A stretch of DNA of 48,509 bases from NCBI GenBank assembly GCA_022571215.1, contig JACZYG010000017.1, positions 1-48,509 on the forward strand. Reading direction: 5' to 3'. Below are positions 21,861 to 24,156 of this stretch, in pieces. The translations under genes and the position numbers were made by a program. Source of the DNA: Fidelibacterota bacterium. GTDB taxonomy: Bacteria; Fidelibacterota; SORT01. The first letter of the stretch is position 1. Each line of letters starts with the position of its first letter. The notes under the pieces are model-generated. The model was not told the origin of the DNA. It ran no database searches and saw only the letters and a program-made list of their open reading frames with translations.

Positions 21861-21919
21861 GAGCAGTGACCTGAGAGTGACCATTTTCTGTCCCGGTTTG
21901 TCCCGTAATGCCGATTCAG
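21861..21919. repeat. Dispersed intergenic repeat R3 in a gene-free stretch (21642-22080)
   Basis: GAGCAGTGACCTGAGAGTGACCATTTTC (R2-like), then TGTCCCGGTTTG and CCCGTAATGCCGATTCAG (identical to R1, but without R1's inner hairpin). It ends directly at the stop codon of the type IX tail remnant at 21920. A minus-strand ORF over this stretch (21690-22001) is out of frame with the tail and I do not believe it. Confidence 0.45.
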
Positions 21920-21964
21920 CTACTTCAACAACACCATCTTCCTCGTTTGGACGAAATCGCCTGC
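21920..21964 (-). pseudogene. Scrap of a type IX sorting tail (AGDFVQTRKMVLLK)
   Basis: Minus-strand codons spell AGDFVQTRKMVLLK-stop, exactly the final residues of a type IX C-terminal sorting domain. Upstream the frame no longer resembles the domain, so only about 45 bases remain. Confidence 0.55.
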
Positions 21965-22080
21965 TCGATGGTAGTTGGTTAACTTGAAAATGAAAGAGCA
22001 TAAACAGGTATTTACAAAAGTCATTGTAGGGGGTTGCTAGGTTAGCGAGGTATTTTGAACTTTAAATCAGATTCTACGGT

Positions 22081-22350
22081 CTATTTCTTCCGGTGTATTG
22101 CCTTAACGTCGTTAATATCTTTAGGAGACATTTTTGTCAATCGGATAGCTCGCGCATTAACCCGCAACAAAGGAGGAACAGACATCAGCGCCATCGAGTG
22201 ATTCTCTGCTTCAATTATTGCCCAGCCGCAATGCTCGTCATCATCGCAGCCCCAATCAAAATGGGCGAGATAGCCTTGAGCCAGAACTTGGCCCAATATC
22301 TTGTGTCATTCACCAATGTCATGTGGCGATTCAATCAAATATCGGTCCAT
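22081..22350 (-). CDS. Small protein with in-frame TGA: candidate selenoprotein or nonsense-mutated gene
   Basis: ATG at 22348-22350 with AAGGGAG nine bases upstream opens MDRYLIESPHDIGE, then TGA (22306-22308), and the same frame continues HKILGQVLAQGYLAHFDWGC...HCGWAIIEAENHSMALMSVPPLLRVNARAIRLTKMSP to a TAG. Together that is 89 residues. From memory of this small-protein family (IExPHxxxxC...HFDWGC..GEH.GWxIIEA..), a Cys is expected where the TGA stands, so Sec-for-Cys is plausible. An 8-bp hairpin lies 9 bases after the TGA. The alternative is a TGC/TGT to TGA mutation. TGA is a normal stop elsewhere, so code reassignment is unlikely. Function unknown. A plus-strand ORF across it is a shadow. 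Confidence 0.55.
22276..22305 (-). promoter_or_regulatory. SECIS-like hairpin just after the in-frame TGA
   Basis: On the minus strand after TGA come CACAAGATA, then TTGGGCCA-AGTTC-TGGCTCAA. The arms pair over 8 positions with one G-U, and the 5-base loop AGTTC has G at its second position. The loop starts 17 bases after the TGA. This meets the usual bacterial SECIS rules (loop about 16-37 bases from UGA, G in the first two loop positions). It also lies in coding sequence and could be chance. Confidence 0.4.
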
Positions 22351-22517
22351 GAGATTTTACTCCCTTATTTAATAATCTTAATTAGGGGCTATCCTATCTA
22401 TTCCAGGAAAAGTGCTCTAAACCTTTTAGATAATCCCAACATCCAAAATAATATGTTATGTAGAATATTCAAAGCTTTATCAGGTTGTGTCTTAACCCGA
22501 ATTAATTACACTACCAT

Positions 22518-22565
22518 CTACTCCAACAGCACCATCTTCCTCGTCTGGACGAAATCGCCTGCTTT
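22518..22565 (-). pseudogene. Second scrap of a type IX sorting tail (KAGDFVQTRKMVLLE)
   Basis: Minus-strand codons read KAGDFVQTRKMVLLE-stop. It is nearly identical at DNA level to the scrap at 21920-21964 and in the same orientation. Nothing else of the sorting domain survives. The rest of the gap 22351-22744 holds only the inverted IS-like end at 22638-22680. Confidence 0.55.
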
Positions 22566-22637
22566 AAGGCGATTCTAACCATTGAAATAGGAAATTACTT
22601 AACAAAAAATGAGATATTTAATGCTTTCTAAAGGCGT

Positions 22638-22680
22638 AATGTGTAACATAGTAAGTAGATTGCAAAACGGGTGCAGGTCA
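22638..22680 (-). repeat. IS-end-like repeat, copy 2 (inverted)
   Basis: On the plus strand this runs AATGTGTAACATA...GTGCAGGTCA: the same outer 13-base and inner 10-base blocks as the other copies, in reverse orientation and with a diverged middle of identical length. Its outer end (22680) faces the one at 23995, so the quinone-reductase gene lies between two such ends. Confidence 0.4.
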
Positions 22681-22744: not shown

Positions 22745-23911
22745 ATGTCAAAAACAATTATTATCGTCGGCGGCTCATTTGGAGGCATCAAGGCAGCTTG
22801 GAGTTTGCGCCATCTTCTTGATGTTAAGCATCGCATCCTGATCATTTCAGACAAACCACGCACAACTTTCAGGGCTTCTTTTCCCAGAGTTCTTTTTGAG
22901 AACCTAGACCCAGAAAAGATCACGATGGATCTGTCAGAAAATTTTAAAGATACCGATATTGAGTTCGTCTGTGATCCGATGACTGCCATTAATCAGGATA
23001 AGAACGAGGTAATCTGCCAAGACAACCGTTATCAGTTTGATTATCTGATCTTGGCGACAGGGGTACGGCATGCATACGAGCTTCTACCAGGCTCGCATGA
23101 ATTCGGCCTTTCTGTTTGTGATCCGGCGAGAATAATTGAAACAAGAGAAGCATTGCTCAATTTCGAGAAAGGTGAATTCTTCGCAGGCGTTGGCGCAGGG
23201 TACACTCCCTGCGACGGCCCACCGATGGAAGTTTTAATGAACATTGATCACCTCTTGCGTGAAAAAGGAATACGTGACAAGACGAACCTTCACTATATCA
23301 GCGATAAGGGACACCTTTTGCCTCCCGGAGGTCCCAAGGTCTGGAAATACCTGGATGGCCATTTTAAGAAACGCGGAATCAACGTTCACCTTGAGGTTTT
23401 TTTGGTAAAACTCGACAAGAACAGACTCTATTTTAAAGACGGTAAGACCATGCCCTATGATATGTGCTTACTGGTGCCACCCTATCGCGGAATCCCGGCG
23501 ATGGAAAACTCCGGTCTAACCGATGAACGTGGGTTTGTTCCAGTGCACATGAAAAATATGCTTGCGAAGGAATCGGAGCACGGAAATATCTACGCAGTTG
23601 GAGACTGCGTTGGTAACCCCGGCCCAAAACAGGGACATTTGGCATTTATGCAGGCTACCGTCGCGGCAGAGCATATTGCCTGGAGGGTTAATCAAAAAGG
23701 CCTCGTGAGAATGTACCTGCCTGAATTTCGCTGTGTTATGGACCAGGGAGGCGGCATAGGGCTATATACTTATTCGCAATATATGTCGGAAGGAGATGGG
23801 TTGAAAATTGAGATTGGAGAAGAACCATATAAGTCGAAAATTCGATTCGAAGAGATTTTTATGGAGAAAAAGGGTGACATTGGAGAACTCCATCATCAGA
23901 TGATGAAATAA
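22745..23911 (+). CDS. sqr: Sulfide:quinone oxidoreductase-like flavoprotein
   Basis: 388 aa. An N-terminal FAD Rossmann motif (IIIVGGSFGGIKAA, residues 5-18), an ATG motif (LILATGVRH) and a C-terminal FAD motif (IYAVGDCVG, 282-290) define the two-dinucleotide-binding family. Cys125, Cys156 (GYTPCDGPPMEV) and Cys330 (PEFRCVMD) correspond well to the three redox cysteines of sulfide:quinone oxidoreductases (for example Cys124, Cys156 and Cys347 in the Aquifex enzyme). That favours sulfide oxidation to polysulfide with electrons to quinone over a plain NDH-2. The C-terminal part is slightly short. GGGAGA lies ~10 bases before ATG. It is a single gene flanked by IS-like ends, suggesting separate acquisition (inference). 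Confidence 0.72.
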   Translation: MSKTIIIVGGSFGGIKAAWSLRHLLDVKHRILIISDKPRTTFRASFPRVLFENLDPEKITMDLSENFKDTDIEFVCDPMTAINQDKNEVICQDNRYQFDYLILATGVRHAYELLPGSHEFGLSVCDPARIIETREALLNFEKGEFFAGVGAGYTPCDGPPMEVLMNIDHLLREKGIRDKTNLHYISDKGHLLPPGGPKVWKYLDGHFKKRGINVHLEVFLVKLDKNRLYFKDGKTMPYDMCLLVPPYRGIPAMENSGLTDERGFVPVHMKNMLAKESEHGNIYAVGDCVGNPGPKQGHLAFMQATVAAEHIAWRVNQKGLVRMYLPEFRCVMDQGGGIGLYTYSQYMSEGDGLKIEIGEEPYKSKIRFEEIFMEKKGDIGELHHQMMK

Positions 23912-23994
23912 GAACTTATTGAAAGAGGTATTGCCCCCCACTCTTTAGCCCACCTCCAAAGTCAAAAAAAGACCCTGATACTGCTCGAATTCTT

Positions 23995-24037
23995 TGACCT
24001 GCCCCCAATAATCGGTCCACCAGTTATGTTACACATT
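23995..24037 (+). repeat. IS-end-like repeat, copy 3
   Basis: TGACCTGCCCCCAATAATCGG then TCCACCAGTTATGTTACACATT; agrees with copy 1 (317-359) at 38 of 43 positions and in the same orientation. No transposase remains in the ~115 bases between here and the tRNA gene. Confidence 0.5.
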
Positions 24038-24156
24038 AAGCGTATATAATTCACTGAAAAATTGACTCAATTCTTATTAACATATAATGGCTGAATTTTC
24101 CAAAGTAAAAACATTAAGGCCTTGTAAAAATATTGTTTTAAAAACTTACTGATTAG

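Follow-up and report, generated by a model that had tools for sequence, protein, structure and literature searches.

A probable selenoprotein gene in Fidelibacterota, with an in-frame TGA at the conserved cysteine of an uncharacterized small-protein family

The DNA analyzed here (the window) is a stretch of 48,509 nucleotides from the genome of a bacterium of the phylum Marinimicrobia/Fidelibacterota. On its minus strand, positions 22350 to 22081 hold a gene of 89 residues, very probably a functional bacterial selenoprotein gene judging from its sequence, to which homologues align over the full length. The gene starts with the ATG at 22350, which follows the ribosome binding site AAGGGAG (22360..22366, minus strand) at a distance of 9 nt, and meets an in-frame TGA at codon 15 (22306..22308). 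The same frame then continues for 74 codons and ends at the TAG at 22083..22081. This layout, with a well-started gene reaching TGA after 14 codons, had been described in an earlier note made from the letters alone and was confirmed. Behind the TGA, on the same strand, lies a SECIS-like upper stem-loop, TTGGGCCA-AGTTC-TGGCTCAA (22276..22296; loop at 22288..22284), which folding of the TGA genes extends by a lower stem, GATA/TATC, and a 3-nt bulge (22269..22300). Automatic annotation would overlook such a gene or call it as a 14-residue peptide.

The product was 46 to 61% identical to eleven homologues, from Chloroflexi, Ignavibacteria, Bacteroidia, Calditrichaceae, a deltaproteobacterial MAG, and Terriglobia, which aligned over most or all of their length and each carry Cys at residue 15. 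Three more sets of 391, 396, and 40 genomes, when searched, yielded many more homologues; all those read residue by residue carry Cys, while the weaker matches without a fetched locus and the new matches from the last search were judged only by having no internal stop. The family is distributed over genomes of Chloroflexota, Ignavibacteriota, Bacteroidota, Calditrichota, and Marinimicrobia. No convincing phage, plasmid, or virus homologues were found, and no anti-phage defense family matched. The residue-15 column of a 45-sequence alignment consists of 29 TGC, 13 TGT, and 3 TGA codons, so the earlier claim that homologues have Cys at the position of the TGA holds for 42 of 42 sequences outside the TGA group. 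When a distant Marinimicrobia subfamily was included in a 20-sequence alignment, residue 15 (Cys or Sec), His10, His40, and Trp43 were invariant; Cys35 is nearly invariant in the family.

The TGA form occurs in 3 of the 245 genomes of the phylum. Besides the window gene, these are L017, from the congener Marinimicrobia MT.SAG.2 (89% protein identity to the window gene), and G129, which belongs to a different family within the phylum (57% protein identity), and the three form one clade (support, 93/92). A misread of TGC or TGT, the codons that homologues have there, as TGA is a negligible explanation, because three separate assemblies agree on the TGA, including one whose protein shares only 57% identity, and G460 served as a control in which an apparent TGA did come from an artifact or mutation. 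The earlier note had named TGC or TGT in the reads as the outcome that would speak against Sec, and the two other assemblies do not bear this out. G460 itself was rejected as a TGA member: its apparent codon-15 TGA was made by a 1-base frameshift (L119, G460:C5:94500-98500), a caution for automated Cys/TGA searches. In G585 and the other stop-containing cases that were read, the stop is the natural end of the gene.

The genome of the window gene (2.56 Mb, 97% complete) encodes the complete Sec system, with all four parts proposed for the search being found: a tRNA-Sec with a TCA anticodon, SelB (338 bits), the adjoining SelA (566 bits), and SelD (353 bits). SelD has its own in-frame TGA, in the motif GGUACK, and provides an internal positive control. 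SelA is present in all three genomes with the TGA form, and the Cys forms occur in host genomes both with and without SelA. As had been stated before, TGA is an ordinary stop elsewhere in the window, terminating 10 of the 36 long open reading frames (ORFs). This count, together with the complete Sec system, argues against UGA reassignment to, e.g., Trp, or low-level suppression without selenium. The frame beyond the TGA is open, as readthrough would also have it, but the column holds Cys in all other homologues and never Trp, and we consider this reading extremely improbable.

The stem behind the TGA has 8 bp, including one G-U, and begins 9 nt past the TGA; the AGTTC loop, whose second base is G, starts at a distance of 17 nt from the TGA. 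This agrees with the geometry first noticed. The 40 nt from the TGA of the window gene fold with -11.0 kcal/mol in RNAfold. The published bSECIS model asks for a loop of 3 to 9 nt, an upper stem of 4 to 16 bp, and G in the first two loop positions, at 16 to 37 nt from the UGA and with an MFE of at most -7.5 (PMC13188914). All three TGA genes fit the model, at a spacing of 17 to 18 and with -11.0 to -12.1 kcal/mol, as do 6 of the 42 Cys homologues, every one at a spacing of 22 to 32. Random TGAs fit in 81 of 703 cases (11.5%), a rate computed with a looser version of the published model. Among the 1,986 TGA triplets of the window, 34 (1.7%) are followed by a stem of 8 bp or more that complies with the published spacing and loop rule, and 3 (0.15%) have such a stem at a spacing of 16 to 18 with a loop of 3 to 6 nt. 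By itself, the hairpin is suggestive but not decisive evidence for Sec decoding. Between the TGA genes, the pairs of the lower stem are mostly retained. The L017 stem differs by a single change (G-U to A-U), and the G129 stem keeps its ends and has an internal loop of two pairs. No compensatory change on both sides of a pair was seen among the three genes, so the support from covariation is weak. Synonymous conservation over the hairpin was in excess in the expected direction but not significantly so (Fisher P = 0.06 to 0.27), and no known RNA family was found over the hairpin.

SelB decoding at a hairpin is established bacterial Sec biology. Because its parts are found in this genome, the UGA at codon 15 would be recoded to Sec by SelB, which would bind the hairpin starting 9 nt downstream of the UGA while carrying a Sec-tRNA supplied by SelA and SelD; we thus infer selenium insertion at residue 15. 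The gene resembles SelB-dependent selenoproteins such as formate dehydrogenase and SelD in its in-frame UGA, its hairpin with G in the first two loop positions, its Cys homologues, and the presence of SelA, SelB, SelD, and tRNA-Sec. In the SelD of this same genome, the hairpin loop likewise lies 17 nt from the TGA. Unlike these selenoproteins, the window protein has a predicted fold that is not thioredoxin-like, and it has no UxxC or CxxU motif.

The window gene and L017 share more than their coding sequence. A 520-nt block holding the gene and its upstream region (22043..22562, minus strand) is 96.3% identical to L017 4789-5308 of MT.SAG.2, and the sequences flanking it are unrelated between the two. 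Inside the block, there are 2 differences in the approximately 172 nt preceding the ATG and 11 among the 267 sites of the coding part. By comparison, the two genomes are about 82% identical or less in their selA-selB region. Given this difference in identity and the unrelated flanks, the block was probably exchanged recently between the window species and MT.SAG.2. One end of the match is a type IX secretion system (T9SS) tail repeat, and the other is position 22043. This repeat (copy 1; 22515..22563, minus strand) is what remains of the 3' coding end of a type IX secretion C-terminal sorting domain (ending in AGDFVQTRKMVLLE and a stop). A second copy, 92% identical to the first, lies downstream of the gene (21917..21965, minus strand). 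An integron or transposon cassette was ruled out for these flanking repeats of 49 nt, since each codes for the C-terminal end of a T9SS sorting domain. About 20 copies of the approximately 49-nt repeat, with the ending YFYRLQAGDFVQTRKMVLLK followed by a stop, occur in the genome (including L042 to L060), and several of them are truncated remnants.

The near identity of the 520-nt block and its probable exchange mean that L017 does not count as an independent observation, which leaves G129 as the only truly independent comparison for the window TGA gene. Past the TGA, the window gene and G129 differ with a dN of 0.33 and a dS of about 2.2, and over 71 codons the differences at codon positions 1, 2, and 3 number 25, 14, and 41. 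Judged against G129, the frame past the TGA is thus under strong purifying selection. Against L017 there are 10 nonsynonymous changes and 1 synonymous change (dN, 0.050; dS, 0.018), so the genus shows no visible sign of recent purifying selection. This 10:1 excess, and the truncated copies of a secretion-domain tail on both sides of the gene, would suit a pseudogene in which an ancestral Cys codon became a TGA stop and the remainder is decaying. The conservation of the frame past the stop relative to G129, however, is not what is expected of a pseudogene. In addition, none of the three TGA genomes has a broken frame, the gene has a ribosome binding site (in G129, GAGGAGG precedes the ATG of the TGA gene), and the sole premature stop coincides exactly with the invariant Cys and is followed by a SECIS-like hairpin in three of three. 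We therefore regard decay as very unlikely. With the TGA retained, selection on the frame, the hairpins, and SelA taken together, the pseudogene, sequencing error, and reassignment readings fail or are very weak. Codon 15 of the gene at 22350..22081 is most probably decoded as selenocysteine where its relatives have Cys (probability, roughly 0.92).

A review from 2026 counts 119 prokaryotic selenoprotein families or subfamilies (PMC13188914). We recognized no match to the window family among them, with the cd- or PTHR-defined families being compared by name and motif only, and no Pfam or NCBIfam model fits it. The proposal of a Sec form of an uncharacterized family is thereby supported. On these comparisons, the family appears to be previously unlisted among selenoproteins, although selenium proteins as a kind are already known; it would add to the prokaryotic selenoprotein list a Sec/Cys family that has no domain model.

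The AlphaFold model (pLDDT, 85) has a ferredoxin-like fold, and we predict a small protein with such a fold, of the dimeric alpha/beta-barrel (DABB) type. Foldseek gave weak matches to the DABB enzymes TftG (4lbp) and ClcF (3znu) at E values of 0.01 to 0.02, the best being TftG (E = 0.011; TM, 0.49), while searching solved structures by sequence returned nothing beyond de novo designed TIM barrels and matches due to chance. With the DABB proteins (muconolactone isomerase, TftG, and YciI-like proteins), the window protein shares the predicted ferredoxin-like topology and the length; it differs from them in the lack of a sequence family match, in a TM-score under 0.5, and apparently in the invariant Cys/Sec15. 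In the model, helix 1 spans residues 12 to 25, and Sec15 lies in its first turn. Reactive thiols or selenols are often located at the start of a helix, and Sec is generally found in place of a catalytic Cys. For these two reasons the protein may well be a selenol/thiol redox or nucleophilic catalyst, in which Sec would be a faster version of the family Cys; we consider this the most likely role and give it about even odds. An OsmC-like gene near L018, L019, and L021 points the same way, for one subgroup only: it is common only to a related subgroup of the Cys homologues, and the Pfam check covered the L019 copy only. The position of Sec points to the probable active-site residue of a family that is widespread yet unannotated, so that its biochemistry should be directly testable through the Cys forms.

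The main functional rival, under which the protein would still be a selenoprotein, is metal binding by a ferredoxin-like protein with His10, Sec15, Cys35, and His40 as ligands. The invariance of His10, His40, and Cys/Sec15 and the near invariance of Cys35 are compatible with it, and the weak fold matches include Atx1-type metallochaperones. SCO4226, of the DUF4242 family, is a nickel-binding protein of about 80 to 90 residues with a ferredoxin-like fold, as is predicted here, but its nickel ligands include no Cys (PMC4186839). The window family, in turn, has no CxxC motif and no sequence match to the DUF4242 (Pfam profile) or HMA families, and no conserved metal-related neighbors were seen. 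We hold metal binding to be plausible but less likely than the redox role.

A broader scenario would join these elements: a new selenoprotein family whose block of about 520 bp is mobile between Marinimicrobia species through recombination at T9SS tails, and whose product is a selenol enzyme with a fold not before known to use Sec. As a whole, we offer it only tentatively.

No neighboring genes are conserved across the family. Divergent from the window gene, at 22745-23911 on the plus strand, lies a gene for a Pyr_redox_2 FAD protein resembling NDH-2 or sulfide:quinone reductase, which was not seen beside other family members. In G129 and MT.SAG.2, T9SS cargo genes stand just upstream (polymorphic-repeat and plastocyanin-like; L120 4830-6977 and L017 4129-4833); this may be a coincidence, such genes being many. 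Just downstream of the MT.SAG.2 gene is a short dispersed repeat (L017 5320-5392) that matches the window at 317-384, 22611-22650, and 23992-24048 with 81 to 91% identity.
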